A DNA stretch of 35,342 bases from Bryobacterales bacterium. GTDB taxonomy: Bacteria; Acidobacteriota; Terriglobia; Bryobacterales; Bryobacteraceae. Both the position numbers and the translations under genes were made by a program. The notes beneath the pieces are model-generated. The model had not been told where the DNA came from. It saw only the letters and a program-made list of their open reading frames with translations, and searched no databases. Of the stretch, positions 7,312 to 22,830 are shown in pieces (position 1 is the stretch's first letter; the number at the start of each line of letters is the position of its first letter). The stretch spans positions 1-35,342 of the forward strand of contig JAEUQD010000347.1 in assembly GCA_016789925.1 (NCBI GenBank), given 5' to 3'.

Positions 7312-7334
7312 GCAGGCAAATCATTATGATACCG

Positions 7335-10070
7335 CTACCCTTGCTGTACGGCGCGCCTTAATCCAGCCTGCACTGGCACCGGGTACCCGACCAAACAGAA
7401 TTGGTCGAGGGCGAAAAGTACGTTCGAGGGACTTCCCTTGCCCTGCGCGATCTCCAACTCCCGTGCCCAAGCCGTTGTCGGATCATTGATACCCACCAAG
7501 AAGCTGCGCTTGGAAATCGGAAATCCTCGCGTCGCCGGATACTCAATAGTCATAGTCGACTTGTTGAGATTCCGAAGGAAGGTGAAAGTGAAGCTCTCGG
7601 TCTTCAGGCAATCGAGAGTTTGAGGCGTCCACGCATTCGCTGGATAGTTGATGAGACGGTTTAGAGCCGTGTCGTTGACGTCAGTCGGGTAGAGCACCTC
7701 GAACCGGCAGTTCGGATGTCTTGCCCGGACGTACTCCATCACGTCCGTCGTGAACTCTCCGATCAAAGCCGGGAGTAGTTGCACCTCGTCAGGAAACATC
7801 CCCGGATCCGTATGGTCGGAGGTGATGATACCCATCGGCCTCCCATAGGCAGCCTCAAACCGCTGCTTTGTATAGTCATCGTAGAACGGCATACCGGAAC
7901 CGGCCTTCGGAAAGTACCACCACTGCACTTCCCCGAACTGCAAATACGGTTGCACTCCAGCTTCGCTCATAACCGTCGCCATATCAGCGTACACTTCTCG
8001 CCAAAAAGCCTTCGATGCGGGCGAGAAGTTCGTCTGTAGTGCAGGGGTGTTCAGCCATGCCGCATCGCCGTTAGGATACCTCTGAGCGATCCCCGCCTCC
8101 CTGGAATCATCTCCATGTTGGAGTTCCATACTGAATGCCGCTGTCACTTCAATTCCATAAGACTTTAGCGCCTCATAGAAGCTACGGCTCCAGTCGCGGC
8201 AGGCTCGGTTGATCCGAGGACTCGCAACCAGATCGGTCAACCATGTCCCATTCACTCCCCCATCCAACCTCGATCCACTGACTACCACGTGGAAGTCACC
8301 TTCACTCGGCGATGCAGCCACGGTCACCATGTTACCCTCGGTTCCCAGCGCCCTCGCAAAAATGGTGAGCCGATTACCCACAGCCTCGGCGCGAATTCCT
8401 GTATAGCCCCTGTTGAACTCAAGCTCGAAAGCCTTGGCGATCGTCTCTGCAGTATCCCCCACTCGATTCAGATGTGTCACCGCAATCTCTGCCGCTTCGC
8501 CCACACGCCCAAGGCGGACTTGTGTGCTTCCGCCGAAGACGGGTACGCCCTCAAAGTCAAGCGTTGCCGACGCGTACACGTTCCCACTGCAAACCAACTC
8601 GTAGTACCACAGCGCTCCGACATAGTGATTCTGCCGTGCTGTAAACCCGAGATCCCGAATGAGCCATGCTGTCCTTTCGGGAGAAATAGCCAGTGAGTGG
8701 TCAGTATCCCAGTCCGTCGCCAGGGTGAGCGTTTCATTACGAGGGAATACCGGTACGCTACTGGACACTATTGCCGCTTCGAGGAAATCGAAATAGAGAA
8801 AACTGCCAGCCGGCCCGGCATGTTCTATCGTCACCGTGTGGGTCCCGGGACCCAGTTCGTCGACGGGCAGCCGGCACAACACGTCTTCCCCTGGAATCAG
8901 CAAGTTCACCGTGCGTGTCGCCGCGGAATCGCACCGAACGCTCACCGCCGCCGCGTTGAATGCACGTCGCGTGCCAAGATATAGCCGGTGCGTCTCGCCG
9001 CATTTGTATGTACACTGTACCTTCGCACCAGGCATCGTCGAGAACCGAATCCGCCCCCCAGAAAAATTCCCCAGCGACTCGGTCCAATTACCGGTGTATA
9101 CCAGTCGTGAGTCATTCTCTTCGATTCGCTGACTCCCCGGTCCAGCCACCACATAACCTGTATTCGTTCCTGATACTTGCCAATTCGTGACCGTAACCGA
9201 GAACTCAGTCCGCATGTACACGCCGGCCTGTAGATCTGCCGAATACGTCCATCGTAACTTTCTTACTTTTTGGGTTGGTACGGTGCGGCCCTCAATATCC
9301 ACAAGCGTCGAAAAGTCAATGTTCACACGCCACTTACTCGGAGATGTTCCTCCGGAGAACTTGGCTGACTGGGGAAACCAGGTCTCCGTCTTGGCACCTG
9401 ATGAGTACCCATACAATCCGATCCGGTTCCCGTTCGCTCCTACCTTACTACCTTCGAGCGTCTGCCCTTCTCCAACGTATTTCAGCTTCAGGACGCGTCC
9501 CTGTCTGCTCGCAACAAGAACAGTCGAAAATGCATTGACGCTGTCAGCGATAGCCTGCACTACAGATTCCGGCGTGTCTCCTCCGAGCACTTGGTAGGTG
9601 TGGTGCTCACTCAGACACGAAATGCCAACATGATCGCCCACTGTCACTGCCCCCAACAACTCCAATTCGGCCTCAGCGGGCGAGTACGATCCTTCCACCG
9701 GAATAGCATGATCTTTGAGAGGCACTCGATAGAATCCTTCAACCCCCTGATCCTCCGCCCAAATTCGAAGATACGGCCAGTCGACGGTGGGGTAAAGATC
9801 CGAATCCACTGAAATACAGTTGACCCGGGTCTCTTCATAACTCAACTGGAGTCCGCTCAAGTCGCCGTCCGGTAAATTTCGAAATGCCGGGTGCTCAATC
9901 ACGTTATCTCGATTCCATTCCACGACCGCCCAGTCAAACTGCTGTCTCCACGTCCCGCTCACAGTAAAGCCGCCAGCACTGCTTCCACTGAAAGCGGCAC
10001 TAGCCGAAGGGCGTTCGAAATAGCATTGCAGATCGCGGTCTGGACGCAATTTCCCGTACATTTGAGCCAT
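7335..10070 (-). CDS. Large tail-associated protein with TIM-barrel-like C-terminal region
   Basis: 911 residues; the last gene of the phage-like operon, 10 bases after the hub gene, with a clear AGGGGAG site before the ATG. The N-terminal two thirds are beta-rich, with jelly-roll-like stretches around residues 330-450 (GTHTVTIEHAG). From about residue 600 the pattern changes to alternating strands and helices: RACRDWSRSFYEALKSYGIEV, then VQPYLQFGEVQWWYFP and FEVLYPTDVND, which looks like a glycosidase-type TIM barrel. GTA and siphovirus tail proteins sometimes carry such barrels (GTA_TIM type). By position it would decorate the tail tip or tail. Catalytic activity is not proven; the Glu in QFGEVQWW is only a candidate. 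Confidence 0.6.
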   Translation of the reverse strand: MAQMYGKLRPDRDLQCYFERPSASAAFSGSSAGGFTVSGTWRQQFDWAVVEWNRDNVIEHPAFRNLPDGDLSGLQLSYEETRVNCISVDSDLYPTVDWPYLRIWAEDQGVEGFYRVPLKDHAIPVEGSYSPAEAELELLGAVTVGDHVGISCLSEHHTYQVLGGDTPESVVQAIADSVNAFSTVLVASRQGRVLKLKYVGEGQTLEGSKVGANGNRIGLYGYSSGAKTETWFPQSAKFSGGTSPSKWRVNIDFSTLVDIEGRTVPTQKVRKLRWTYSADLQAGVYMRTEFSVTVTNWQVSGTNTGYVVAGPGSQRIEENDSRLVYTGNWTESLGNFSGGRIRFSTMPGAKVQCTYKCGETHRLYLGTRRAFNAAAVSVRCDSAATRTVNLLIPGEDVLCRLPVDELGPGTHTVTIEHAGPAGSFLYFDFLEAAIVSSSVPVFPRNETLTLATDWDTDHSLAISPERTAWLIRDLGFTARQNHYVGALWYYELVCSGNVYASATLDFEGVPVFGGSTQVRLGRVGEAAEIAVTHLNRVGDTAETIAKAFELEFNRGYTGIRAEAVGNRLTIFARALGTEGNMVTVAASPSEGDFHVVVSGSRLDGGVNGTWLTDLVASPRINRACRDWSRSFYEALKSYGIEVTAAFSMELQHGDDSREAGIAQRYPNGDAAWLNTPALQTNFSPASKAFWREVYADMATVMSEAGVQPYLQFGEVQWWYFPKAGSGMPFYDDYTKQRFEAAYGRPMGIITSDHTDPGMFPDEVQLLPALIGEFTTDVMEYVRARHPNCRFEVLYPTDVNDTALNRLINYPANAWTPQTLDCLKTESFTFTFLRNLNKSTMTIEYPATRGFPISKRSFLVGINDPTTAWARELEIAQGKGSPSNVLFALDQFCLVGYPVPVQAGLRRAVQQG

Positions 10071-10080
10071 ATTTCTCCCC

Positions 10081-13000
10081 TTACAATCGAACCGTTACCG
10101 TAAGGTCCCGCCCGGGGCTCATGTCCCACCCCTGCGGAACCGAGACTACGTCAAGATTCAGGTGCGCCATCTGCCGCAGTGGACCTAGCCCGAACCCCTG
10201 CACGATATTAGACATCGTCTCGCCTGCGGGAATGTTTAGCAGACAATACTCGTCTCCATCCTGTCGTAGGCGCAGTTCGATGCTGCCACCTGTCGGTGCC
10301 TCGCGGACGACCGCAAAGATGTCTCGCACCGCACGAGTCGACTCGATCACGAGAGGAGGAGTTGCATCGCTATGGATCGCCAAATGTCCTTCGTGTTGAA
10401 TTGTAATTTGGCCGCCAGATAGAGTTCGAATTCCAGAGTCGATATTCAGCGTGAAGTTCGCCCGCCGCGTCTCGCCGTTCCCACGCCCGTTCGTGACGTG
10501 CAAGTCTGCTGCTGCTATGCGAACGTCGGGCAGGTGGATCGGATACATAAAGGACCCACTCGCCGCGCTTCCGAAGAAGTCTTTGACAAACGGTAGAATC
10601 CAAGTCCGGTGCTCGAGCGCATATACCGGTACACCAGCGCCATGATTCGCTGATGACGTCCCATGCGACCCACGGATCACAGTCACCAGTCCTTCACCAA
10701 CTTCGTCCACCTCTACAATCTCTCTTTCGATTTGCACTAACATGCCAGGAGACAACAGGGTCGTATCGCTCAACGTCAAGGCCGTTTCACTGTCGTCGAT
10801 ACTTGCGGCGAGCTCACTTCCAGGCATCCCCGCTAGTTCGTTCCAGAAGAACAGTTTCAACGTTCCGGACGTACCCCCCCGTGTATTTGACAGGTCCTCA
10901 AACCCAACGCCGACCACGTTCAGGGATCCTTGCCCCGCAGGCTGCAGACCGAACACCGGCATCGGGGGAACATCCGCATCGCCGTTCGCGCCCGCGCCAC
11001 CCAGTCGCCAACGCGTAATGTGCGCTAAGTCGTATCCGCTGTCCCGTCCTAGCGCGTTCACCGCACGGCCACAGATTTGAACAGTCGTTCCCGGGCGGTT
11101 CGGCACTCGAAAGCGCAAAGGGCTGCGTGCGCTTCGCGCACCTGTTTGCCACCCCGGCTCTACGATTGAGAACCTGCTGGTACTGTCAGGAACGATACTC
11201 CAGGAACCTTGGATCGACAAAGTAGTCTCGTCGTGGGAAACGATGGCCCGTTCCTGCCCGGCGCCTCTACCCTTCGTGACTCTGACCACGTAGCCGGAAA
11301 ATTCGTCGGGTGTCAGTTGAATCGCGCTGGACCCGACGTATCCGGCACCAAACACCGTTGCAGCGGTCTCAGGATGAACTTCTAGTCGCCACTCAAAAAG
11401 CGCGTGATCGAAGTTCGGGTCTGGAGGACCCTGCAACTCGGTTCCGGAACCCGTGTCGGTGAACACACTCGCGATTGCGAGGGTTGATCCAATTCTGAGC
11501 ACCTCAGATGGGTTCTTTCCTCGATACACATTGAAACTAGCCGTACCTGGAGAGAAACTCAGCCCCTGCAATTGCACCCTGTTTGTGTTTGTTCCAGGCG
11601 GCACCACAGCTCTCACAAGAAACGACAGATCACTCTCCCTTCCGTCTGTGCTGACCGCAGTGATCGCGTAGTAAAGTGTCTGGCCACCCGCGAGGCTGCC
11701 TCCGGTTGAAGCAACCGAAGGCGAGAGTGATAGCAGCGGAATCTCGATGTCGCCGGTAGTCGGCGCACTCGGGACCGCAAAGCCAACCTCCAGTTCTACG
11801 TCTAGACTTCCGTCTCCGTTCTCCAGGATCCTCTCAAGCACGGAGTACCGTGGTGTCAAGTCCTCATCGAGTTCGAGCCCCACGAGCGTTCTTGGCGTTC
11901 CAATCTCTGCGCCAACCCTCCGGCGCGATACTCGGCCGCTGGCCGCTATAGAGGGATTATCTCCGTACCAGTCGTCGCTGTGTACTTGCGCCTCAATCGC
12001 CATCGTGCCTTGATTCAGAGACGGAGAAATGCGAATGACCCGGAATGCCTGTCTTAATAGACCTTCCTTTTGATATGTGATGGTAATTAAGTCCCCAGGC
12101 CGCAGCATAACGCCCTTAACGCTGGTTTCGAACTCGATGTAGAGATTGCCTCGAATCGCCTTGTCGAGTTGCAGTTTCAACACACGAGCCGCCTGGTGAA
12201 AGTTCGCTACGCCAAGCGCTACAGAGGTCACCGCCACCTCCTGGCGTGCTATCGTCACGTCCTCCACATCCACGAGGGACAGGCTGTCCTGTTGGTACTC
12301 ATTGAACACATCCTGAAACTCGATACTCCCTCGGTTCGGGCTCTCGGCTGTACTCCGCGACCACATCCGCACTGACGATTCACCGCTGGCGCGCCGTGCA
12401 ATTCCCGAACCGTAGTCCGACCCGTCACCGAACTCATAGGCAGGCCACCCTCCGGCCATCATCTCTTCGCTGTTGGAGCCCAACGGCTTCAATGGCTGCT
12501 GTGTGTGAAAGGGCCCTTCTACCCGAACCTCCAGCCTACCCGTGACCCCGTAGACTAAATACAAGCGTGACGCGGTTCGAATACCACGAACAAGATCGGC
12601 CACTGAGCGCCGCCGCCGCAGAGCCAGATTGCACTGGAACCGAGGCTGCGCCTGGAGTACTCCGTTCAAGTCCGAAACTTGCAGGGGCTCTTCGCAGAAG
12701 GCCGCTGCGTTGGCAACGCTCGCCAAGTCGATTTCATCCGTCGTCCAGCCGCTTCTACGTAGCAAGTCAAGCAGCACCCAAGCAGGATTGTTGCTGAACA
12801 CCTCACCCGCATATCCCCCATCGTGATGATAAGTTGGCAACTTCTGTCCTTGAAGCAATACCTTCACTTGAGGGATCGCCTTGCCATCACTCACCCTGTT
12901 TGGAACCGATACCGCCAGAAATGCCATGCTGCCGTATGGATCGCCAAGCGGATTCCCCAACGAATCGGTGAACTCCAGATTAAAGCCGCCAGAGCGGCTT

Positions 13001-14007
13001 CCGTTATTCACCAGGTTGTACCACCCCGACGAGGTCATCTGTTCACCGTGAATCCCCGCTGGAATCTCGACTCCATTCACGACGACCCTCAAGACACCTT
13101 CGATCTCTCCCAGCCCCAGCAAGACCTCGAACCGTGTCAAGTTCCCATCATTCCGAGCAAACACGACCGGAGGTTGCACCCACGCTGTCCCGTAAACGAC
13201 CGGAACAAAGTCGTTATACCGAGCCTCGTTCTCACTCACGTTCGATGTCTTGGCCTGTCGTTCTCCGTGTCCTCGCACAAGAACTGATGCCGGTACGAAT
13301 TCAATTCCGCCGAATCTCCTGGTCACGTTCCCGCGGGAATCTTTATCCAACATTCCCCGCTCCTGGCAGGCTGCCCGCGTAAAGTCGCAGCTGCTAAACG
13401 GCACTGTCCCGTTCAGGTTTCCGAGTCCTCCCGGTCTTCCTGCCGAATACCCGCACCGATAAAATGGAGAATACTTGCCTTGCTCACCTCCGTTTACCGC
13501 CTCTGCCTGTTGAGAGTTCGTCGAAGGGAATGTCCACGGGCAGCGGCGCTGAATTCGTACTTCCGGGAGCATGAAGCGCTGAAGGTTGAGACGGCTGTGG
13601 GCACTCAGTCGCACGGTTGATTCTGTCAATTCATCTGGGGGATTCATCAGCCCTTGGAAGATCACGATTTCTTCTGAGGCTGGAACTCCGGCGCGCAAGT
13701 CGAAGAACAGGAACCTGGCAGTCACCTTGGCGCCTTTGAACGACTGCGCGCGAGTCACCTGCGAAATATATGAATCCGCGTTGGCGAGAGTGATCGACAA
13801 ACGAGTCAGCGTGTCAACACCTTCATCGCCTCCCCACTTCATGTCGAAGAGATTGTGTCGTATTACTCTGGGCGCGTACTGTTTGTCCCCAATTGTGACT
13901 TTATGAGTGCTCCAATGTTCTGCGTATCCGTTCGCAAGGACGCAATCGAACGCTACGACTGGCGTTTCCGAGATTTCCTGTTCTTTCAGCTCGCTAATTG
14001 TTCTCAT
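10081..14007 (-). CDS. Tail hub / tip attachment protein (gpL-gpJ-like fusion)
   Basis: 1308 residues, the largest protein of the operon. The N-terminal region (1-230) resembles hub proteins of the gpL/DUF2163 group. It holds four spaced cysteines at about 156, 185, 207 and 214 in RRCPWTFP, YRCGYS and CDFTRAACQERG, followed by RRFGG, a pattern like the iron-sulfur site of lambda gpL. From about 260 comes a gpJ-like tip region (NDFVPVVYGTAWV, then LVRGIRTASRLYLVYGVTGRL). At about 755-850 sits an Ig/FN3-like domain with YYAITAVSTDGRESDLS and FNVYRG. It would close the tail tube and contact the host. Family calls come from pattern memory; position between the distal tail genes and the last tail gene supports them. 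Confidence 0.7.
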   Translation of the reverse strand: MRTISELKEQEISETPVVAFDCVLANGYAEHWSTHKVTIGDKQYAPRVIRHNLFDMKWGGDEGVDTLTRLSITLANADSYISQVTRAQSFKGAKVTARFLFFDLRAGVPASEEIVIFQGLMNPPDELTESTVRLSAHSRLNLQRFMLPEVRIQRRCPWTFPSTNSQQAEAVNGGEQGKYSPFYRCGYSAGRPGGLGNLNGTVPFSSCDFTRAACQERGMLDKDSRGNVTRRFGGIEFVPASVLVRGHGERQAKTSNVSENEARYNDFVPVVYGTAWVQPPVVFARNDGNLTRFEVLLGLGEIEGVLRVVVNGVEIPAGIHGEQMTSSGWYNLVNNGSRSGGFNLEFTDSLGNPLGDPYGSMAFLAVSVPNRVSDGKAIPQVKVLLQGQKLPTYHHDGGYAGEVFSNNPAWVLLDLLRRSGWTTDEIDLASVANAAAFCEEPLQVSDLNGVLQAQPRFQCNLALRRRRSVADLVRGIRTASRLYLVYGVTGRLEVRVEGPFHTQQPLKPLGSNSEEMMAGGWPAYEFGDGSDYGSGIARRASGESSVRMWSRSTAESPNRGSIEFQDVFNEYQQDSLSLVDVEDVTIARQEVAVTSVALGVANFHQAARVLKLQLDKAIRGNLYIEFETSVKGVMLRPGDLITITYQKEGLLRQAFRVIRISPSLNQGTMAIEAQVHSDDWYGDNPSIAASGRVSRRRVGAEIGTPRTLVGLELDEDLTPRYSVLERILENGDGSLDVELEVGFAVPSAPTTGDIEIPLLSLSPSVASTGGSLAGGQTLYYAITAVSTDGRESDLSFLVRAVVPPGTNTNRVQLQGLSFSPGTASFNVYRGKNPSEVLRIGSTLAIASVFTDTGSGTELQGPPDPNFDHALFEWRLEVHPETAATVFGAGYVGSSAIQLTPDEFSGYVVRVTKGRGAGQERAIVSHDETTLSIQGSWSIVPDSTSRFSIVEPGWQTGARSARSPLRFRVPNRPGTTVQICGRAVNALGRDSGYDLAHITRWRLGGAGANGDADVPPMPVFGLQPAGQGSLNVVGVGFEDLSNTRGGTSGTLKLFFWNELAGMPGSELAASIDDSETALTLSDTTLLSPGMLVQIEREIVEVDEVGEGLVTVIRGSHGTSSANHGAGVPVYALEHRTWILPFVKDFFGSAASGSFMYPIHLPDVRIAAADLHVTNGRGNGETRRANFTLNIDSGIRTLSGGQITIQHEGHLAIHSDATPPLVIESTRAVRDIFAVVREAPTGGSIELRLRQDGDEYCLLNIPAGETMSNIVQGFGLGPLRQMAHLNLDVVSVPQGWDMSPGRDLTVTVRL

Positions 14008-14011
14008 CGTC

Positions 14012-14815
14012 TTAGGTCTCCAGTCCGTCCGGAGCGGTAATGCTCACCTTGACTGTGTAATTGTCTACCCCCTCGCAAGTAATCACGAGTGAATCATCCT
14101 TAAACCGTGCTCTTTGATACACTCCTCCGGAGCCTGTGGTCTTCTGATAAGCGGATGGCTCACGTTGTCCTTCCACCTGTAGGCCAACCACGTCGATGGA
14201 TGCACCGGCCGGCAGTTCGATCCCAAACGTTGTCGAAGATCCCTCGCCCAGGCCCCCTCCCGTACTATAAATCCGCCTCCACGCTGGGCCGATCTCACTC
14301 TCCTGCCACAGACTGTCTGTCCCGCTCCTCCACCCCAAGCGAACCTTCCCGGCGGCACTGCCTCTGAAGTAGCCGGAGAAGCAGTAGGTGTAGGACCCAG
14401 GGACGGCTAATGTCTGCTCGACGCTCTGCACAATTTGTCCGCCGTTCACCATTCGCGTCGCCCGCGTGGTTCCCCATAGGTCGCTCACGCCCCCGCTTAG
14501 CAGTAACCCTGCGCCCTTTAGCCACGCCGCATGGCTCAAGTCTTCGCTGTACGAAAGTAGGTTCCCCGCTGGATCGAGAAAGCTAAAATTGAATAGTGAT
14601 CCTTCACTCTCCTCGAACAGGTCTGCAATCCGGCTCGTTTCACGCCCGGTAAGCCCTCGCAGTTCTAGATCCCATTCACACTGTCGCGCTCGGTCGTCTG
14701 CAAACAGGAATCGCCAATTGTCGATCGACTCGTTCACGATCGTACGAGTCTTATGGCGCACCACGACTGGGTATTGAGCGAGCGAACCAGATTCCAATTG
14801 TGGAAAGAACGGCAT
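14012..14815 (-). CDS. Distal tail protein-like, with carbohydrate-binding-like insertion
   Basis: 267 residues. The first 88 residues align by eye with the next gene upstream in the operon: both have a G-x3-QYP opening, a Leu-x-x-LTG-x-E segment and an FSF-x-DP strand. After this point a domain begins with LLSYSEDLSHAAWLKG, a form common at the start of jelly-roll modules on phage tail proteins, and the chain ends with a second beta segment. It probably forms part of the ring at the end of the tail tube, with the insertion as a possible sugar-binding surface. An AGGAGG site lies in the end of the preceding gene, four bases away from overlap, which suggests translational coupling. Confidence 0.6.
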   Translation of the reverse strand: MPFFPQLESGSLAQYPVVVRHKTRTIVNESIDNWRFLFADDRARQCEWDLELRGLTGRETSRIADLFEESEGSLFNFSFLDPAGNLLSYSEDLSHAAWLKGAGLLLSGGVSDLWGTTRATRMVNGGQIVQSVEQTLAVPGSYTYCFSGYFRGSAAGKVRLGWRSGTDSLWQESEIGPAWRRIYSTGGGLGEGSSTTFGIELPAGASIDVVGLQVEGQREPSAYQKTTGSGGVYQRARFKDDSLVITCEGVDNYTVKVSITAPDGLET

Positions 14816-14818
14816 CCC

Positions 14819-15175
14819 CTAACCTCCTGTCTTGTGAATCCACACAACAGCCAACCCTTTTTCTTGCTCCGCCAAAGACCATTGACTGTCATCCTCCCCT
14901 AAGTGACAGCCTTCGTAAGTAACGTCGTCAAATGGGTCTGTGAACGAGAACGTCCTGCTCCTTCCTCCCTGCGCTTTTAAGAACGCTGCAACGCGAACGA
15001 GCTCATCGCCAGTCAGTTTCTCTAGGCGCACCATCCATGCACGGACCACGCCTCCGCACTGCCGAAACCGCTGTTCGCTGCCGTCGACGAATCGAACAGC
15101 GACATTTCTGAAGCGCCTCACTTTCACGGTCGGATATTGCAATACCGCTCCGGTGTTCAGTGTTGGGAAATCCAT
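14819..15175 (-). CDS. Distal tail / minor tail protein (gpM or DUF2460-like)
   Basis: 118 residues. It reads FPTLNTGAVLQYP at the start, LEKLTGDELVRVAAFLKAQ in the middle and RTFSFTDPFDDVTY near the end, which matches the small beta-sandwich proteins that sit between the tube and the hub in siphoviruses. It follows the tape measure by 3 bases and precedes its longer paralogue by 3 bases. The start at 15175 is preceded by GGAG with eight bases of spacing. It appears to be the minimal form of the fold, without the insertion seen in the paralogue. Confidence 0.6.
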   Translation of the reverse strand: MDFPTLNTGAVLQYPTVKVRRFRNVAVRFVDGSEQRFRQCGGVVRAWMVRLEKLTGDELVRVAAFLKAQGGRSRTFSFTDPFDDVTYEGCHLGEDDSQWSLAEQEKGLAVVWIHKTGG

Positions 15176-15178
15176 GGC

Positions 15179-15901
15179 TCACAGCTCCGCCATAACATCG
15201 TTTACCGAGTGCATGTTCAGCATGGCATCACGCACCGCCCTTGCAATATCGTCGCTGTGGTCTAGAAACGAACGGCTATCCATAGTCTGCACCTGCACTG
15301 TAATTTGCGGGATCACGGCAGTAGGTCTGGGTAGAGACCGAACAAGTCCATCCTGACCGTAAGCCACGTTCGAGAAGCCGCTCAAATCTCCCTGGGGCAA
15401 CGCCGCCTCGATTCTTACGGGGGCTGGCTGGACATAGGGAATCACTTCGACGGCTGGCTCCTTCTTGTCCTGACTGAACAATTTCGAAATCCCGCTTATA
15501 GCGGCCCCAAGCCCGCCTGCAAGGTTGAGCCATCCGCTTCCCCCGCCAATGACACTCGACACAGTTCCGGCAACATCACGAAGCTTGGCCGCCGTGCCCT
15601 CAGCCAGCGCCATTGTATTTTGTTCGACCGTTGCCGTTTGTTGTAAAGACGCCGCCTTCATTTCTGCCAGGGCCCGCCCCAATTGCGTCATCTCACCTGT
15701 TAGCGCCTCGGCTGACTTCCCGGCGTAGGACGGGCTGTCCTTGGATTCGGTTTGCGCTTCTACTAACTGCCGGATGCTGTCGGCAGTCGCACGCTCCGAG
15801 GTGAGGCCCCAGAGGCTGCCACTTAACGATTCCCCCAGATCCCCCGCCCCGCGTGTCGACAGAATCATCGCTAGTTGGGTTCGAATATCAGTCTTGTCCA
15901 T
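15179..15901 (-). CDS. Short tape measure protein
   Basis: About 240 residues from the ATG at 15901, which has a GAGGGAG site; an in-frame ATG at 15946 lacks one and lies inside the chaperone frame. The first half is rich in Ala, Gln, Glu and Thr and looks helical. A hydrophobic glycine-rich stretch follows (VSSVIGGGSGWLNLAGGLG, continuing to ISKLF), then a C-terminal part with repeated valine/glutamine strands. Position directly after the frameshifted chaperone pair and before the distal tail genes is where tape measures sit. At about 0.15 nm per residue this gives a tail of about 36 nm, far shorter than most siphovirus tails and close to that of the Rhodobacter GTA. The call rests on position and composition. 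Confidence 0.6.
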   Translation of the reverse strand: MDKTDIRTQLAMILSTRGAGDLGESLSGSLWGLTSERATADSIRQLVEAQTESKDSPSYAGKSAEALTGEMTQLGRALAEMKAASLQQTATVEQNTMALAEGTAAKLRDVAGTVSSVIGGGSGWLNLAGGLGAAISGISKLFSQDKKEPAVEVIPYVQPAPVRIEAALPQGDLSGFSNVAYGQDGLVRSLPRPTAVIPQITVQVQTMDSRSFLDHSDDIARAVRDAMLNMHSVNDVMAEL

Positions 15902-16582
15902 TTGCAAACTCCCTCGCTCTCTCGTTCTCCAGAATCCAAAACGCATCGGCCTTCCGCGCAGTCATCTTCAAAAGGCTGGGCGTGCGGTCTGTCCTCCAGA
16001 TTTCATACTCCTCAAGCCAGGCATAGGATTCGGCGGTAATCATTGACCTCGGACAACGTTCCGCCACAACATTCCGCCTGGCCCACACTACTTTGGGTGG
16101 AGCTGATTCAGACGCTTTCAACCAACCACAGCGTCGGGCCGCTTCCAAGCCGTCTTTACGACACGATTCGCAGTTCCATGCGGCTTGGTTCGCATATTGG
16201 AAGTGGAACGCGATTGCTAGTTTTTTCGCTCTTCCTCCGAGAGGTTGGATTCTTTTCGGATTGCTGCCAGAATCTCGGCTACTAGCGGCTCTGGCCCGCT
16301 TTCGATGAGTGTGTCCGGCCCAGCCTCGCACCCATCAATCGAAAGTCCCTCAATTCCGACCAGCCCCCACTTCAGGTAGATACGATCTATTTCGTGGTGC
16401 GCTATGCTCGCTTCAATTTGGTCTTCGATCCCACTTCCAGCCGCGTGAAACGCTCCCCGAAGTCCGATCTCCCTGAGTCTCTTCGCCAGTTCGATTCGCC
16501 GCCCCAGAGACATGCGCGCCACTTTATACCTCACCCCCGGCAACGTTATCGACTGGTGCTCTGCTTGGCTTGTGTACTCCAT
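15888..16582 (-). CDS. Tail assembly chaperone GT fusion made by -1 frameshift
   Basis: The short chaperone frame stops at 16217-16219, but a second frame without its own start runs through the stop at 15888. A slip of -1 at A AAA AAC (16226 to 16220) joins them. The product would be 121 plus about 110 residues, near 231 in total, continuing LAIAFHFQYANQAAWNCESC and ending in REFANGQD. The added part has cysteine pairs (CESC) and aromatic residues, and the TMP start overlaps its last codons. Lambda G/GT and many siphoviruses make a small and a frameshifted long chaperone in this place to coat the tape measure. The frame is clearly used: it contains no stop and has no start or ribosome site of its own. 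Confidence 0.75.
16217..16582 (-). CDS. Tail assembly chaperone G-like (zero-frame product)
   Basis: 121 residues starting at the ATG at 16582, which carries the leader GGAGGACAACATG. The same 13-base leader precedes the small protein starting at 19373. The protein is mostly helical with a charged tail ending SEEERKN. Position between tail tube and tape measure, and the slippery site at its last two sense codons, identify it as the short member of a G/GT pair. No enzymatic motif is visible. It would bind the tape measure during assembly and be absent from the finished tail. Confidence 0.65.
   Translation of the reverse strand: MEYTSQAEHQSITLPGVRYKVARMSLGRRIELAKRLREIGLRGAFHAAGSGIEDQIEASIAHHEIDRIYLKWGLVGIEGLSIDGCEAGPDTLIESGPEPLVAEILAAIRKESNLSEEERKN
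16220..16238 (-). promoter_or_regulatory. Programmed -1 frameshift site with internal Shine-Dalgarno
   Basis: Reading the minus strand, zero-frame codons are CGA AAA AAC TAG, so a canonical X XXY YYZ heptamer, A AAA AAC, is in the right phase and is followed directly by the stop. A GGAGG at 16238-16234 lies seven bases before it. An internal Shine-Dalgarno near this distance and an adenine-rich heptamer are the stimulators known from dnaX -1 frameshifting. After the slip the next codon is CTA, entering an open frame of 110 codons. Confidence 0.8.
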
Positions 16583-16591
16583 GTTGTCCTC

Positions 16592-17764
16592 CTAAGCGAA
16601 TGCGACCACAACTTCATCGTTTGCGAATCCCTGCGCCCGGCAGTTCCGAAACCGCCACCGTAGTCTCGTCTCTTCGTCATCGAACTCAGGAACCTCCGGA
16701 ACGACTGTCGGCAAGTACAAACCGCATAGTTGCCCTTCCTGCATGCCCAACTGGAGCATCATGCCCACTGGCGAGCGCTGACTCGCCGCCTCATACAACG
16801 CAAGTGTCTCGGGCCTCGTATTACTCACCAGAAGAATGTCCAGTCCCACCTCGCGCTGTCCCGAGATCACGCATGATGCCCGGTTTGTGCCAAAGTCGCG
16901 CCGGCTCAAATCCGTGTTGTTTCTGACACTGAGTTCGGCCTCGACCACCGTATGAAACTGTTCTGGCGTAGCGCCGAACCACGCTTGGCCCATGCTGCCC
17001 GGCACCAACGAGAACCCCACAACATCAATTTCCGGCTCCGCCGGATAACTCGATAAGCCAGCCTGCCCATCCACAAAGCTCCGGCTATCCAGGAGCTCGG
17101 CCGCCTCTCCGACAAACCGGAATTGATGGAAGTCGCCGTTCAGCGATACTCGCATCTCGTCAACCGCTGCGCCAGTGAGCACTCGTTGAACCGCTTCGGC
17201 CGGCTCCCAGTAGTCAAACACACTCACACTAGGAAGCGAGTTTGCAGGCAGATATGTAATTGCTCTACCCGCTGGATCGCCCGGCTGTGGTACCTCGCTC
17301 AACGGAGCGTTCAGAACTACAGTCTGTTCATCGATGACATTTGAGACAAATCTAATTTCCGCACCGAATCGAAGCGCTTGCCCTACTCCAAGCGCATGCG
17401 CCGATGCGAACGTGATTCGATCCCCGCCAGTCGCCATTTCAACGGTTCCGCCGTCAAACGTCACACCAACGCCACCAAGCGCAGCCTGGAAGAGTGGACC
17501 GTAGCACGGTTCCGCTCTTCCCTCTGTCCACCCTGTCATGTATGTCTGAAGATCAAACGTCACCCGCTTCCGCATTCCCGCGGGTGCTCCGATGAACGTT
17601 CTGCCGCCGGTTTTGTCGCGCCGTCTTGGCCGCTCAACCATCTGACGAATCCCGAGTTTCACCGCCGGAATCCGGTTCTCGGACGTTGCCGCACCAGCTT
17701 CTCCAAAGCTCTGCTCAAGGGCGGCGTAGTATCTGTTATCGTTTGAGGATATGTAACAATGCAT
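16592..17764 (-). CDS. Major tail tube protein (putative)
   Basis: 390 residues with a strong GGGGAGGG site before the ATG at 17764. It is beta-rich and opens with MHCYISSNDNRYYAALEQ. Blocks such as GMRKRVTFDLQTYMTGW and the C-terminal LRWRFRNCRAQGFANDE resemble large tube proteins. An inserted beta domain seems present between about residues 90 and 175 (TVEMATGGDRITFASAHALG). The place between terminator and tail chaperones is where the tube gene normally lies. It is longer than minimal tube proteins, which may mean a surface domain. I do not recognise a specific named family. Confidence 0.5.
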   Translation of the reverse strand: MHCYISSNDNRYYAALEQSFGEAGAATSENRIPAVKLGIRQMVERPRRRDKTGGRTFIGAPAGMRKRVTFDLQTYMTGWTEGRAEPCYGPLFQAALGGVGVTFDGGTVEMATGGDRITFASAHALGVGQALRFGAEIRFVSNVIDEQTVVLNAPLSEVPQPGDPAGRAITYLPANSLPSVSVFDYWEPAEAVQRVLTGAAVDEMRVSLNGDFHQFRFVGEAAELLDSRSFVDGQAGLSSYPAEPEIDVVGFSLVPGSMGQAWFGATPEQFHTVVEAELSVRNNTDLSRRDFGTNRASCVISGQREVGLDILLVSNTRPETLALYEAASQRSPVGMMLQLGMQEGQLCGLYLPTVVPEVPEFDDEETRLRWRFRNCRAQGFANDEVVVAFA

Positions 17765-17780
17765 TTTTCCCTCCCCTTTT

Positions 17781-18278
17781 CTAGGCGACGTTTGCTTCTA
17801 ACGACAGCCCCACTTTTGCAGTCTGGGCGAAATTTTTGCCTCCCTTTCCAATCGGCTCAAAGCGCACGTCGTAGCGCCCTGAATAGTAGAGGCCCTCGCT
17901 CAACTCCCCTCGGCTCTGATCTAAAACTCGGAGGACCGCCTCAACACACGCTTGCGTCTCGGCCTCGAGTCTGTCGAGTCGGTCTGCCGAATGGCGAATC
18001 TCAACAACCATGTCAACCTTGCCCGAGAACTGCTGAAATTTCTGCCGCAGTGAATTCTCAACTCTCACACAGTAGACGACAATCTGTGGATACTTCATTC
18101 CTTTGGTACGGTCACTCAGCGCAATCGAATAATTCCCTTTCGATACGCTTATTGGGATATCACTCGACAGCTCACTCAGTCCTGCCTGGCGAAGGGCATT
18201 CAGATGCGCGCCAACACCATCTCGCGAAGTCAACACGTCCCCAAGCACTTCCGTCGCCCGTGCGCTTACCGCTAACAT
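17781..18278 (-). CDS. Tail terminator / completion protein (putative)
   Basis: 165 residues, start at 18278 preceded by AAAGGGGGAAG. The alternating pattern MKYPQIVVYCVRVEN, then VDMVVEIRHS, with a helix DRLEAETQACVEAVLRVLD between, matches the alpha/beta fold of tail terminator and tail completion proteins, which cap the tube at the head-proximal end. Length is typical. Position after the adaptor and before the tube supports this. No catalytic motif is seen. Confidence 0.5.
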   Translation of the reverse strand: MLAVSARATEVLGDVLTSRDGVGAHLNALRQAGLSELSSDIPISVSKGNYSIALSDRTKGMKYPQIVVYCVRVENSLRQKFQQFSGKVDMVVEIRHSADRLDRLEAETQACVEAVLRVLDQSRGELSEGLYYSGRYDVRFEPIGKGGKNFAQTAKVGLSLEANVA

Positions 18279-18290
18279 ACTCTTCCCCCT

Positions 18291-19037
18291 TTAAAACACC
18301 CGCCTCTTTCTCACAAAGTATTCAGGACTCTGCCCTGATGGCGCGCTCGGGCCTGGTACGGTTCCGTCAACTGGAAGAGTCCATGAGCTGCCTGGCGCCA
18401 GAGGAGATTCGTTCTGCCGCATGGTCTGATTCACTGAATCGCCCAGATATACGTCCCATCCGGTACACTCTCCCGGCATCGCGCCCACTTCTACGCTTGG
18501 CACTTCCCCCGGCGCCATTTCAACCACCACCGCGTCACTTGCAGCGCCACTCTGCCCCATCGAATTTCGCCACGCTACCCGTACAGCGTAGACTCCTCCC
18601 GCTCCCGCACCCGGTGCAGCGCTTACTGTAGGCATCGAGGCCTTTATTACGGGATTGTCCACGAGCCCAACACCAAGTTCCATTAATAATTCTGCAGTCT
18701 CCCTCGCCATCTCTTTGAAGCTTTTCCACTTTCCCAGGTAGCGGTCATTCAATTGGCTGCTATAAGCATCGCCGTACACCTCCGCGAGGGTTCGAAGTAC
18801 GTGCCACCGCCTGAGTCCGGGTGTCACGACTACACGCCTCAAGTCGCGGTCTCCACCGAATCCCAGGTTCCCTGTGCGCAAAAGAAACACAGATAGTTCG
18901 AGTTCAATGGCCTGCCGCGCTACGTCGAGCTTCGCCGTCACTGAGATATTTTCGTTTCTCGCCGTCTCGAGAATAGAGCTGTCGACGGCTTGTAAGTCTT
19001 CAATTGTTGAGGCCGGTCCGTCAATGAGCAGAGCCAT
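18291..19037 (-). CDS. Head-tail adaptor-like protein with C-terminal Ig/FN3-like domain
   Basis: 248 residues with AGGAGG before the ATG at 19037. The first 130 residues are helical (TAKLDVARQAIELELSVFLL, VVTPGLRRWHVLRTLAEVYGD), as in connector proteins that bind the portal. Near residue 145 a glycine/proline linker leads to a beta domain with YAVRVAWRNSMGQSGAASD and a tryptophan in GWDVYLGD. This domain has the same plan as the Ig-like domain in the hub protein, so two particle proteins may share a decoration module. The adaptor role is inferred from position. Confidence 0.45.
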   Translation of the reverse strand: MALLIDGPASTIEDLQAVDSSILETARNENISVTAKLDVARQAIELELSVFLLRTGNLGFGGDRDLRRVVVTPGLRRWHVLRTLAEVYGDAYSSQLNDRYLGKWKSFKEMARETAELLMELGVGLVDNPVIKASMPTVSAAPGAGAGGVYAVRVAWRNSMGQSGAASDAVVVEMAPGEVPSVEVGAMPGECTGWDVYLGDSVNQTMRQNESPLAPGSSWTLPVDGTVPGPSAPSGQSPEYFVRKRRVF

Positions 19038-19052
19038 AACTGTGCCTACCTC

Positions 19053-19373
19053 CTAGTCCTTCAGCAGTGACTTCCGCAACGCTTCAAGACCACCCTGCGA
19101 GAACACGTCCAGGGCCATCCTCTTTTGCTGCTCCTCCGCAGTTTGCCGAACGTGCTTGGCCCGCAACTCTGCATAGTACTCTTGAGCCTGTAGAGGGCTC
19201 GCAAGAGTCGCCTTGTCCTCGGCAATTAGCCGCGCAGCCGCGTCTTTTGTGACTTCTGTCAGAATTCCGGCACACCCGCCATCGTCTGTCTTATTACTGA
19301 CGACAACGGCAAACTCGCCCTCAATCGTCCGCGCGATTTCTCGAATATTGTTGTAATATTCCCTCAGGTTCAT
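19053..19373 (-). CDS. Small protein between coat and adaptor, function unknown
   Basis: 106 residues from the ATG at 19373, chosen because GGAGGACAACATG gives an ideal site; the ATG at 19394 sits at the foot of a hairpin and lacks good spacing. The protein starts MNLREYYNNIREIARTIEGE, has a central VVVSNKTDDGGCAGILTEV segment and a long helix rich in Ala, Gln and Glu. I do not recognise it. Genes in this slot often encode head decoration or head completion proteins, but nothing visible decides this. Confidence 0.65.
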   Translation of the reverse strand: MNLREYYNNIREIARTIEGEFAVVVSNKTDDGGCAGILTEVTKDAAARLIAEDKATLASPLQAQEYYAELRAKHVRQTAEEQQKRMALDVFSQGGLEALRKSLLKD

Positions 19374-19394
19374 GTTGTCCTCCACAAATTTCAT

Positions 19395-19424
19395 GGGGCG
19401 TGCCGCGAATCCTCCGCACGCCCC
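19395..19424 (-). promoter_or_regulatory. Intercistronic hairpin after the coat gene
   Basis: A perfect 8-base-pair GC-rich stem (GGGGCGTG with CACGCCCC) encloses a 14-base loop in the gap between coat stop and the next gene. No U-run follows on the minus strand, so it is not a classical terminator. It could stabilise the coat message or lower transcription or translation of downstream genes. The loop contains GGAGG. Confidence 0.5.
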
Positions 19425-19458
19425 GGTTGTCTTCTCTCTCCCGTCGGTGCGAAGACCG

Positions 19459-20370
19459 CTAGCTCTTCACCTGAACACCATGGTTGTTACGCAATACGCC
19501 GGCGCCGTACAGAACATCCACCGTGAATTGTTGCGCCAACGTGTTCGGCTGGTAGCTCATCACTACGCGCATCCCGAAGTTACCGAGTTCAGCGTATTCG
19601 GCGATGGCGCCGGTCCCCGGCAACGGCTGCGGCAGCCGCCTCACCACCAACCCCAGGGCGTTTCGCGCAAAGGCCATGTTGTTCGTCGTCACAGGGCCAC
19701 TCCCTGTCTTCGGCACAAACTGCGACCGGAACACAAAGAAGTCCTTAATCTTTCCAACACTTCCTTCCACCAGCGCCCGCAGACCCGCCTCACCCGCCGT
19801 TTGAAACTCGCTGAAGCGCGGAATCTGCCGCATCTGTGAATACGCTTCACCGCTGACAATCAGATATTTCGGAGAGCTCGCGGGAACCTTCGCGTTGAAC
19901 AACGCCGTCTCCGCCGCATCAATCGCGGCCTCGGTGAGTGCGCTCCCGGCAGTACCGACTGGCGCATTCGACGTAAACTGCGAGTACAGTCCCAGCAGGT
20001 CAGCCTCGATCTTCTCTGCCAGCGCCGCCACTGCGGGCTCCATATACAGCCGAAGAAGATCCGGCACTGCCAGAATTTTGGTCACATCCGGAATCTGAAA
20101 CGTTGCTTCGGCATGCGTGTTCAGCGCAATCTGAGCATTCCCCAGTGACGGGTTCTGTGTAATAACAGATCCGCCATCCGAGATATTGTTCGCCACCAGC
20201 GTCGGAGGGATGGGCACGTTCACCATATCGCCGGCCTGCGCCAGCACTGGCTCAAAGTCCCGATTCACCAGATTACCCATGACAAGGTTCCCCATCAGGG
20301 CCGGCAGCGCGTCGGCTGCGACCAGCTTTACGATCGCTTGTGCGACATTTGAAGATGTAATTGAAGGCAT
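19459..20370 (-). CDS. Major capsid protein, P22 coat-like
   Basis: 303 residues with an AGGAAAAAGAG leader. It begins MPSITSSNVAQAIVKLVAAD and continues with FEPVLAQAGDMVNVPIPP and TFQIPDVTKILAVPDLLRLY, the pattern of coat proteins of the P22 gene 5-like group, which take the HK97 fold. The middle and C-terminal parts (PKYLIVSGEAYSQMRQIPRF, then GLVVRRLPQPLPGTG and VDVLYGAGVLRNNHGV) fit the same family. The gene follows a scaffold gene and no prohead protease is present, consistent with P22-like assembly without cleavage. It would form the icosahedral shell. Confidence 0.8.
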   Translation of the reverse strand: MPSITSSNVAQAIVKLVAADALPALMGNLVMGNLVNRDFEPVLAQAGDMVNVPIPPTLVANNISDGGSVITQNPSLGNAQIALNTHAEATFQIPDVTKILAVPDLLRLYMEPAVAALAEKIEADLLGLYSQFTSNAPVGTAGSALTEAAIDAAETALFNAKVPASSPKYLIVSGEAYSQMRQIPRFSEFQTAGEAGLRALVEGSVGKIKDFFVFRSQFVPKTGSGPVTTNNMAFARNALGLVVRRLPQPLPGTGAIAEYAELGNFGMRVVMSYQPNTLAQQFTVDVLYGAGVLRNNHGVQVKS

Positions 20371-20406
20371 TCTCTTTTTCCTCTTTCTTTCTCAATCGGT
20401 CTTTCT

Positions 20407-20979
20407 CTAATTTCCTGGCTGCAGAGCGATCCGGGCTATCTCCTTGCGGATCTGCTCAAGTTCTCGAGGGTCCATCCCCGGCTTGATTCGGTCTAGGTCA
20501 AATGAACCGGATGGCCCTGTGGGTCGATTCGCCAGTGTTGTTCCCGAACCACCTGTCATCCGCGCCGGTAGAAGTTCTGGGTTCTCATGGACAAATTTCG
20601 TCAGGTAGTCCCGCAAGTCCACCTGACTTTGTCCATCACGAGCGACGAACCGGCCGTCCTCGGCGCGTCCGACGTCGTCTTTGACGGCGCGATACGCCAG
20701 GTCGACCTTCACCACACCCAGTCGCTGCAGTTCCGTCCGTATCGTCGAGGTTCGCTCGGCCTCCTCGGCACGCTCTTTGGAGCGACGGTTTTCATCCGCC
20801 AATTCGTTCATGCGGCGTTCCAACGTTTCCCGCTTTCTGCGTTCTTCCTCCAGTTCCGCCTTGTAGGCCGGCTCGCTCTTGCTTTTCTGGAGTTCCATGT
20901 ATTCCGAAAGAACCTCCGCGATAACTGATCGCATCGGCTTCCCTTCGTTCTCGATCTGGTTTGTCTCCTCAGTAGTCAT
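20407..20979 (-). CDS. Capsid scaffold protein (putative)
   Basis: 190 residues, strongly charged. Residues from about 40 to 100 form a long predicted coiled coil (AYKAELEEERRKRETLERRM, then ELADENRRSKERAEEAERTS). The C-terminal third has a glycine/threonine linker (GGSGTTLANRPTGPSG) and a basic tail helix. This layout, just before the coat gene, is that of phage scaffolding proteins that guide shell assembly. No protease motif is seen. A GGGAGG lies 14 bases before the ATG, a somewhat long spacing. Confidence 0.7.
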   Translation of the reverse strand: MTTEETNQIENEGKPMRSVIAEVLSEYMELQKSKSEPAYKAELEEERRKRETLERRMNELADENRRSKERAEEAERTSTIRTELQRLGVVKVDLAYRAVKDDVGRAEDGRFVARDGQSQVDLRDYLTKFVHENPELLPARMTGGSGTTLANRPTGPSGSFDLDRIKPGMDPRELEQIRKEIARIALQPGN

Positions 20980-21009
20980 ACTCTTGCTATTGACCTCCCT
21001 TGGTCTCCT

Positions 21010-22401
21010 CTATGTGTCTGTGGCATCGCTTGCGCTGTCGATCTCTCCAGCTATCCTGTCTTTCACCTCCTGGCGAACGTCGCTTAAATACTTGAATGCG
21101 ACTTTCTTGTAAACTTGCTGCTTCAATGTCGGCGAGGCGATGCCAAGAGACAGTAGGTGCCTGGCGTCCTCCAGTTCTCCACTGAAATCGGCAATATCAA
21201 ACTCTTCTAGACCTGATACATCGATTGAAATGTCGTCTTGCCGCGCTGCGATGATTGCCCTCAGCACTCGCTTCAGACTGTCCTTCACGGCGTCTCCAAA
21301 TGCCCGAAGCACCTCCTGGGTGATGGCATAGTCTCTCAGCTTGCTCAGTCCCGACTGAACCATCGGCTCTCCAGCGAGGTGCTGAAGATATGACACACGA
21401 TATATCTCGTGTTGAAGACGCTTCAGATTGTCTGCTGCGATTTGGTAAACATTGCCGGCTGGCTCGGTCCATCCGAACTTGTCCTGTGGACCCAGTTGTA
21501 TGTAGTAGGAGTCGCCGATGATTTGGCTCCACTCCCGCTCCGAGTAAATAACTGGCTGCGCGAATAGTCCCTGACTCAGCGCCCAACCTAAGGCGTTCGA
21601 CTTATTGAAGTGCTCTAGCTGGAGCAGCGCGCCGCGGTTCATCAGCCAAAGCCCTTCCGGCATCCGCAAATCAAAAAGCGGCACTTGCCCTAGGTGGGCA
21701 AGACCGTGCGTTCCGCTGTCAATAAGATGCGTGTCGGCCTCCCCCTCGAGCTGTTGGTACACTTCGAAGCGTTCACGGTCAAAATGTGTCCACTGGGTCA
21801 CACGCGACCATTCCGCGGTGCGAAAGCTCCGCTTTCGCAGTTGACTGTTCTTTAGTACGACCCAGTCGAAGTCCCCTCTATCGTCCACGCTCCAATTGAT
21901 CAGCATCTCTGGAGGACAGTGGCTGACGTACGCGCTTGATGTCCCCATCTCGTTCTCTTCTGCACGACTTTGCGGTTGCTTCGAAGCGCGTGGGAAGTCC
22001 ACTAGTATGTAACTGGCTCCACACACTAGGCTGTCAAGCATGGCCTGTCGGTAGAAGTCGGTGAGTGAGGTCCCCCTTCGATCGCAGTCCTCCGAAAACT
22101 TTGCTACAAACGATTTAGCTCCCGGGTCTTTTCCCTCGACTATCAACAATGGTTCCCGCCGGAATAGCGTCGCAACATACCAGTCGACGATGGAGCCGAT
22201 GTAATTCTCATAGAACACCCTCGCCAACCGCTCCCCGTAAACTTCCAGCGGCTCTTTCTGACGCCGCAGAAGGTACTCTGTCGAGTGCGCTCGGAATTGT
22301 TCGCCGCCGACGTATAAGTCGCGGTACTGCCTCAGCAGTCTTTTGCGCACGGCGTAATCGGGATGTTCTGAATCGATCTCATGGGCTATGTTTTTCAGCA
22401 T
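21010..22401 (-). CDS. Portal protein (DUF4055/SPP1 gp6-like)
   Basis: 463 residues, the first gene of the operon, with GGAG five bases before ATG. Motifs fit portal proteins of the DUF4055 type: RQYRDLYVGGEQFRAHSTEY, then FYENYIGSIVDWYVATLFRR, then SLVCGASYILVDFPRA, and a long helical C-terminal part (LRDYAITQEVLRAFGDAVKD). Twelve copies would form the DNA channel at one capsid vertex. Terminase genes normally lie directly upstream; here the upstream sequence is an AT-rich gap and then a divergent alcohol dehydrogenase. The gene is full length and has no internal stop. Confidence 0.8.
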   Translation of the reverse strand: MLKNIAHEIDSEHPDYAVRKRLLRQYRDLYVGGEQFRAHSTEYLLRRQKEPLEVYGERLARVFYENYIGSIVDWYVATLFRREPLLIVEGKDPGAKSFVAKFSEDCDRRGTSLTDFYRQAMLDSLVCGASYILVDFPRASKQPQSRAEENEMGTSSAYVSHCPPEMLINWSVDDRGDFDWVVLKNSQLRKRSFRTAEWSRVTQWTHFDRERFEVYQQLEGEADTHLIDSGTHGLAHLGQVPLFDLRMPEGLWLMNRGALLQLEHFNKSNALGWALSQGLFAQPVIYSEREWSQIIGDSYYIQLGPQDKFGWTEPAGNVYQIAADNLKRLQHEIYRVSYLQHLAGEPMVQSGLSKLRDYAITQEVLRAFGDAVKDSLKRVLRAIIAARQDDISIDVSGLEEFDIADFSGELEDARHLLSLGIASPTLKQQVYKKVAFKYLSDVRQEVKDRIAGEIDSASDATDT

Positions 22402-22830
22402 TTGATCTCCAAGTTGGCGTTAGCCGTCGGCGTTGCTCGCTCTGCAAACCTCACCGCCGCACTCAACGTACCGCCCGATTTTCCGAGTGAGATGATTGAT
22501 TTTTCCTATATTGTTGAAAAATAAGCTGAAAATAAATTTCAATTAGTTGTGAACGAGTTTTTTTTGACGAAGCGAACAAATAGCGTATGATTCTTCTGCT
22601 TCCTGTAAAACAAAGATTTAAAAGCGCTTAGATAATCTCTTGACACCATCGCTTGTGAAGCTGTTCCTTCGGCTTCGTTGGCATTCCACACGCCGTCCTT
22701 GCCGCCGGTCACAGGACTTCCGCGGTGTTTCTTCCCGGTCCTCACCTTCGCTATCCTTTTGGGTGATCATGCGCCTCAATCTCTTCCAAATCGGTCTGTG
22801 CGCCATCCGGTTCGCGACATGAGAGATCTG
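22402..22830. other. AT-rich divergent intergenic region
   Basis: No convincing gene. The stretch 22490-22625 is clearly AT-rich compared with both sides. It holds a plus-strand promoter (listed separately) and a small inverted repeat, TGAAA-5-TTTCA, at 22527-22541, which could be an operator. On the minus strand it must contain the promoter of the particle operon, but I see only weak matches there. The remainder up to 22830 is GC-rich and forms a long leader for the dehydrogenase. Confidence 0.6.
22564..22591 (+). promoter_or_regulatory. Sigma-70-like promoter pointing to the alcohol dehydrogenase
   Basis: TTGACG (22564-22569), 16 bases, then TATGAT (22586-22591): five of six matches in each box. 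The transcript would have a leader of about 230 bases before the dehydrogenase start. It lies back to back with the start of the particle operon. Confidence 0.55.

Follow-up and report, generated by a model that had tools for sequence, protein, structure and literature searches.

We propose that gene G, which encodes a putative tail assembly chaperone in a phage-like head-tail gene cluster of the Bryobacteraceae (Acidobacteriota), carries a functional programmed −1 ribosomal frameshift of the phage lambda G/GT kind, with a stem in the downstream mRNA as its stimulator, and we hold this reading with high confidence. The conserved stimulator would be this downstream stem, probably as part of a pseudoknot, and not the Shine-Dalgarno-like GGAGG upstream of the site. 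The genes lie on the minus strand of the window, by which we mean the whole stretch of 35,342 nucleotides that was analysed, and from their sequences the cluster is a candidate for a domesticated particle resembling gene transfer agents (GTAs).

The Slippery Site and Its Conservation

A check of the sequence places the slippery heptamer A_AAA_AAC at 16226-16220 of the minus strand, adjoining the zero-frame stop TAG (16219-16217). The minus strand from 16238 to 16217 reads GGAGG AAGAGCG AAAAAAC TAG, with the zero-frame codons ...GAG GAA GAG CGA AAA AAC TAG, and the heptamer thus has the X_XXY_YYZ phase. G (16217-16582, minus strand) has a zero-frame product of 121 aa, while the −1 frame, which we call T (15888-16220, minus strand), runs from CTA (16220), reading CTA GCA ATC and onwards, for 110 open codons to a stop at 15890-15888, where its end overlaps the start of the tape-measure gene (ATG at 15898). 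T would be reached by frameshift alone, and the predicted G-T fusion has 121 + 110 = 231 aa. A first-pass annotation of this DNA had described the in-phase heptamer directly before TAG, the GGAGG seven bases upstream, the 110-codon −1 frame ending where the tape measure begins, and a product of about 231 residues, all of which agree with the sequence; it left the minus strand unmentioned. When both strands of the window were scanned for in-phase heptamers no more than one codon from a stop and flanked on either side by 100 or more open codons, the A_AAA_AAC before the TAG of G was the single qualifying site.

The G/T junction was extracted from 148 species, in 145 of which both halves could be resolved in the −1 register. 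Of these 145 Bryobacteraceae species 144 retain the heptamer, as A_AAA_AAC in 138 and as A_AAA_AAT in six. Among IMG/VR contigs that contain both halves it is present in 168 of 169. The first base of the heptamer is A at all 144 sites, where the codon that it ends encodes R, E, T, I, A or K, and A occupies only 15% of third positions in the same genes; the lysine codon within the heptamer is likewise AAA in 144 of 144, compared with 24% elsewhere in these genes. In 141 of the 145 species the heptamer is followed by a stop either immediately or after one further codon. In three species the zero-frame stop lies 85-142 nt past the heptamer, which makes G longer. In 30 of 144 species the T frame is open for no more than 15 nt ahead of the heptamer, with a minimum of 3 nt, which would confine slippage in them to the heptamer itself.

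The first-pass annotation had named loss of the heptamer with the genes conserved as evidence against a frameshift, and a single such case was found, so that the reading stands. In this species, G235 (locus L015, about 1470-1520), the heptamer is changed to GAGAGAAAC and both frames are open, which counts against the frameshift reading and represents either a natural loss or an assembly error. A contig in IMG/VR (L316), identical in length, repeats this site sequence, and the loss was counted once. In G131 (L084, 1495-1870), the only species without T, T and the heptamer have been lost together and G runs straight into the tape measure. The heptamer is still present in G164, which has an N gap. 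A 285-aa open frame in G174 that looked like a natural in-frame fusion of G and T was rejected as an artefact, the site being covered by 19 N.

The Downstream Stem and a Candidate Pseudoknot

Synonymous constraint is greatest at the heptamer and then at the T codons GTC, TTC, GCC, TGC and GAC downstream, and it is from these constrained codons that stem 1 arises, a helix of 10-11 bp in which GUCGC-N-UUCCA pairs with UGGAA-NN-GCGAC. In the window its 5′ arm, AUCGCGUUCCA (16204-16214, minus strand), starts 5 nt after the heptamer and its 3′ arm, UGGAACUGCGAA, lies at 16167-16178 of the same strand, forming 10 bp with A-A as the outermost pair. Spacers of 5-9 nt are usual for such stimulators (PMC5009743), a range that includes the 5-nt spacer before stem 1. 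Stem 1 is paired in 93.8% of cells, with compensatory changes at four pairs and with G-C, C-G, A-U and G-U all found at the base pair at +12, and it is recovered unaided by RNAalifold. In a held-out set of 78 sites, each 8 nt or more away from every training site, 94.1% was paired as against 92.0% in shuffles, none of 1000 of which was as high. Here and in the tests of stem 2 the shuffles leave relatedness in place, and their counts are not to be taken as probabilities. We regard the predicted stem 1 as a solid, conserved downstream structure.

A second helix is less certain. This stem 2 would pair CAGGCC in the loop of stem 1 (CAAGCC in the window) with GGCCUG further downstream (GGCUUG in the window), the two arms being CAAGCCGC at 16180-16187 and ACGGCUUG at 16146-16153 of the minus strand, with 7 bp formed with 16181-16187. 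When 720 column pairs of the training set were scanned without bias, six of the top eight covarying pairs belonged to stem 2, and the two helices taken jointly had a covariation of 0.214 compared with 0.131 ± 0.006 in shuffles (0 of 500 as high) and 0.03-0.11 when the helices were slid. The held-out signal is weaker. The 78 sites gave 76.4% paired versus 73.7% in shuffles (0 of 1000), a small excess carried by two pairs, and an earlier held-out set of 49 sites had given no excess over shuffles, and for both reasons our confidence in stem 2 is lowered. The 80-nt single-structure minimum-energy fold of the window alone contains stem 2 instead of stem 1, and an Rfam search of positions 7000-23000 of the window returned no match. 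Stem 2, and hence an H-type pseudoknot, is likely, though less secure than stem 1.

Slippage could instead be stimulated mainly by the upstream GGAGG, in the way that a Shine-Dalgarno (SD) sequence acts in Escherichia coli dnaX, and to this we give little probability. The window does have GGAGG (16234-16238, minus strand), ending 7 nt short of the heptamer, and 51 of 144 relatives carry a partial GAGG upstream, but the complete GGAGG is present in just three of 144 species and at one of the 78 held-out sites, and is not a conserved part of the signal. The upstream stretch pairs with the anti-SD at −4.9 kcal/mol, more weakly than the −6.2 kcal/mol of synonymous recodings, and the value for the window is mid-range for its own amino acids. 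Rarity in relatives and the synonymous controls together led us to reject GGAGG as the stimulator, and with it the internal Shine-Dalgarno of the dnaX kind that the first-pass annotation had proposed. That annotation had likened the slippery tract and stimulator as a whole to dnaX, and the likeness holds in part: an A-run heptamer is followed by downstream RNA structure in both, whereas the dnaX heptamer is A_AAA_AAG and is accompanied by an upstream SD stimulator that is not conserved here.

Slippage of the polymerase rather than of the ribosome, by which the A-run would gain one A in some mRNAs and so join G and T, is highly improbable. The run of six A, and the ten A in one relative, could be cited in its favor, but a tract of six A is short for a polymerase to slip on, its length stays at six A before a C or T and in exact reading phase, and a conserved compensatory stem at the distance of ribosome entry has no role for a polymerase.

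We infer for the programmed frameshift the following course. Most ribosomes would end at the TAG and release G, while others would meet the folded mRNA, with stem 1 5 nt downstream, as lysyl- and asparaginyl-tRNA are on A_AAA_AAC; held back by the structure, a minority would slip one base into T and complete the 231-aa GT, with G expected in excess. By analogy with lambda, G would coat the tape measure and T would recruit tail-tube subunits, and the whole would belong to a domesticated, GTA-like particle in which tail assembly continues. Also counting against the frameshift, besides G235, is that A_AAA_AAC is much less shifty than A_AAA_AAG on E. coli ribosomes (PMC5009743).

The G and T Proteins

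The identity of G and T rests on position and fold because sequence libraries (Pfam and PHROG) give a name to neither protein of the window; one relative of G matches phrog_290, a minor tail protein. In each of the 20 long loci G is flanked by the genes for the tail tube and the tape measure, and the lambda G/GT gene arrangement recognized by the first-pass annotation, with overlapping ORFs between these two genes, is thereby upheld together with the conserved heptamer. The AlphaFold model of G has a pLDDT of 89.8, and its named fold matches among viral models (BFVD) are largely tail-assembly or tape-measure chaperones, each individually weak with the best named match at E 0.04; searches of the PDB with the sequence and the fold of G gave no match. 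From its predicted structure G resembles tail-assembly chaperones.

No match to T was found in Pfam, and searches with T proteins started from two other clades found one and zero loci. T has four invariant cysteines (C17, C20, C31 and C56 of T, window 15888-16220), which suggest a zinc-binding fold. The window and the related locus L032 differ in T at two bases, each in a first codon position and each altering the encoded residue, and there is accordingly no dN/dS value for T in this pair.

The first-pass annotation had held that the second frame has no start of its own, which is true in effect. Start-type codons (TTG, GTG and ATG) occur inside T, the first being a TTG at 16148, and a GTG lies upstream at 16331, but no start position is conserved across relatives, 21 of 144 species have no ATG in T at all, and a start of any type with an SD between −60 and +75 is found in 14 of 144. 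Homologs in which T has its own start and ribosome site, which that annotation had set against a frameshift, were thus not found as a conserved feature, and we rejected an own start for T. That T is a separate protein, translated from an internal start or by ribosomes that re-initiate past the stop of G, is very improbable, since the scattered start codons and occasional SD that would permit it leave unexplained both the conservation of the heptamer and its loss along with T.

A Head-Tail Cluster Inherited Within the Family

The genes around G and T form a 14-gene block of 15-16.5 kb that is collinear in the 20 long loci, save for single weakly conserved genes that are unmatched in some of them. 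All of the window's genes in this block are on the minus strand. The head genes are those for the portal protein (21010-22401; phrog_145, E 2e-46), a scaffold-like protein (20407-20979; a weak phrog_206 match, E 9e-4, and synteny) and a major capsid protein of the P22-coat type (19459-20370; PF11651, E 4e-14, and phrog_283, E 1e-40). They are followed by three ORFs of 113, 248 and 165 aa (17781-19394) in what is by synteny the head-tail joining region, their putative function being read from position alone. The tail tube protein (16592-17764, 390 aa) is recognized by its predicted fold, which matches those of P74-26 (8ed0, E 2.6e-14) and T5 pb6, and beyond G and T lies a short tape-measure protein (15179-15898, 239 aa; median of 210 aa in relatives) assigned from position and a weak PHROG match (E 0.005). 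Two DUF2460-like tail-tip proteins of 118 and 267 aa (14012-15175) match PF09343 at E 2e-6, which is below the curated cut-off, and at E 0.03, and the block continues with a 1308-aa tail hub or fiber protein of the Phage-tail_3 type (10081-14007; PF13550, E 8e-6) and a 911-aa protein with a TIM-barrel that belongs to the 'non-contractile tail sheath' family (7335-10070; PF23845, E 3e-20). The conserved genes of the block are all head, packaging or tail genes, and no replication, integration or lysis gene was recognized among them.

The terminase large subunit gene lies just upstream of the portal gene in 19 of the 20 long loci. No terminase is found there in the window (22401-22678) or in G117 (L067, 17365-17637), which belongs to the same genus. 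A direct search of the window's genome, which is 87.6% complete, found no terminase, and in G117 a relative at only 34% is present elsewhere in the genome. DNA packaging in this genus is doubtful because the linked terminase is absent, and the particle there may rely on a borrowed packaging motor or may take up no DNA.

The capsid gene is present in 198 of 237 genomes of the family (about 83%) and in 70 of 76 genera, usually once and at near 80% identity, and among 396 genomes from across the phylum good capsid matches are confined to family members. Free phages in the phage collection match at only about 23-37% identity. A tree of five proteins of the element from 20 genomes has 11 of 17 splits in common with the RpoB tree, compared with an average of 0.27 and a maximum of four after random relabelling. 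In ten genomes the cluster has common downstream neighbors, an M24-type peptidase and an ABC ATPase (identified from the sequences themselves and not by library search), and these shared genes place it at one chromosomal location across genera. The lineage of the window is elsewhere: in the window, G117 and G233 the common neighbors are an endonuclease/phosphatase and an aminotransferase.

For most genes, those of the major capsid, tube, portal, scaffold and large tail proteins among them, dN/dS in a comparison of the window with its nearest relative is 0-0.1, as under purifying selection, and gap-free gene alignments of the window with a close relative contain no stop codons. With the near-universal heptamer, these low values support the earlier statement that the operon is still under selection. 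We lean, with modest confidence, towards an undescribed, family-wide domesticated viriform that has been inherited since the ancestor of the family, tunes the assembly of its tail by a pseudoknot-stimulated A_AAA_AAC shift, and in the window's genus is without terminase yet under selection.

That these loci are instead an ordinary group of temperate prophages of Bryobacteraceae appears unlikely. PMC11924767 lists them, in its group (i), among predicted proviruses, and a terminase accompanies nearly all long loci, but a single copy in most genomes of the family, absence at comparable identity outside it, congruence with RpoB, shared downstream host genes and a block with no recognized gene for replication, integration or lysis all argue against it. 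Very improbable is a decaying remnant in which the heptamer is a frozen accident: the window's genus has indeed lost its linked terminase, but its alignments are free of stops, five genes have the low dN/dS given above, and the heptamer is retained while flanking codons diverge.

Comparison With Known Systems

The slippery heptamer of phage lambda is G_GGA_AAG, whereas the Bryobacteraceae pair has A_AAA_AAC, a conserved downstream stem or pseudoknot and a T with four invariant cysteines, and resides in a vertically inherited cluster rather than in a phage. The two share a pair of overlapping ORFs placed between tail tube and tape measure, a −1 shift, here a proposed one, near the end of G and a T that has no start of its own (PMC5009743). 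Both lambda-type G-T frameshifting and pseudoknot stimulators are established in bacterial systems, pseudoknots acting with bacterial ribosomes in IS3-type elements (−1) and in the capsid gene of Listeria phage PSA (+1), where the genes differ from those here, and A_AAA_AAC itself is used in g-t expression by the archaeal virus HCTV-2, whose host domain is unrelated (PMC5009743).

As for the candidate particle described here, the head and tail genes of RcGTA of the Alphaproteobacteria form a cluster that is passed on vertically, and the tape measure is short. The RcGTA tail tip has proteins of the DUF2460 and Phage-tail_3 types, as does the Bryobacteraceae cluster. The latter differs in belonging to another phylum, in its tail tube of the T5/P74-26 type and in a capsid that is of the P22-coat type and not HK97-type (Phage_capsid), the window capsid having no match to Phage_capsid PF05065.

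The group (i) Bryobacteraceae proviruses of PMC11924767 are the same element, since IMGVR_UViG_639633060_000001 from Ca. Solibacter usitatus is our locus L424. The accessible text of that paper calls them proviruses and reports no vertical inheritance, domestication or frameshift, and our search of the open-access literature turned up neither the frameshift, nor a pseudoknot in a tail-chaperone pair, nor any description of the cluster as domesticated. As a mark of selection on tail assembly the frameshift lies in the nucleotides and is independent of protein conservation, and we argue from it that a cluster usually labelled 'provirus' goes on building tails in over 140 species of abundant soil bacteria; the retention of the signal in so many of them makes it probable that they still benefit from the phage-like particle. 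The pair also offers a clean bacterial case, in which compensatory mutants and one loss exist in nature, for studying how RNA structure may set a chaperone ratio.

If the particle carries DNA, it would represent a GTA lineage in the Acidobacteriota, and the capsid contigs in IMG/VR would be host genes and not viruses. At least 597 IMG/VR records encode the cluster capsid, and many of them may be host chromosomal rather than viral. Elsewhere in the window, an ORF at 1331-1702 of the minus strand has a GS...DSDLDLLV motif and looks like an MNT-type nucleotidyltransferase, possibly a toxin-antitoxin partner.
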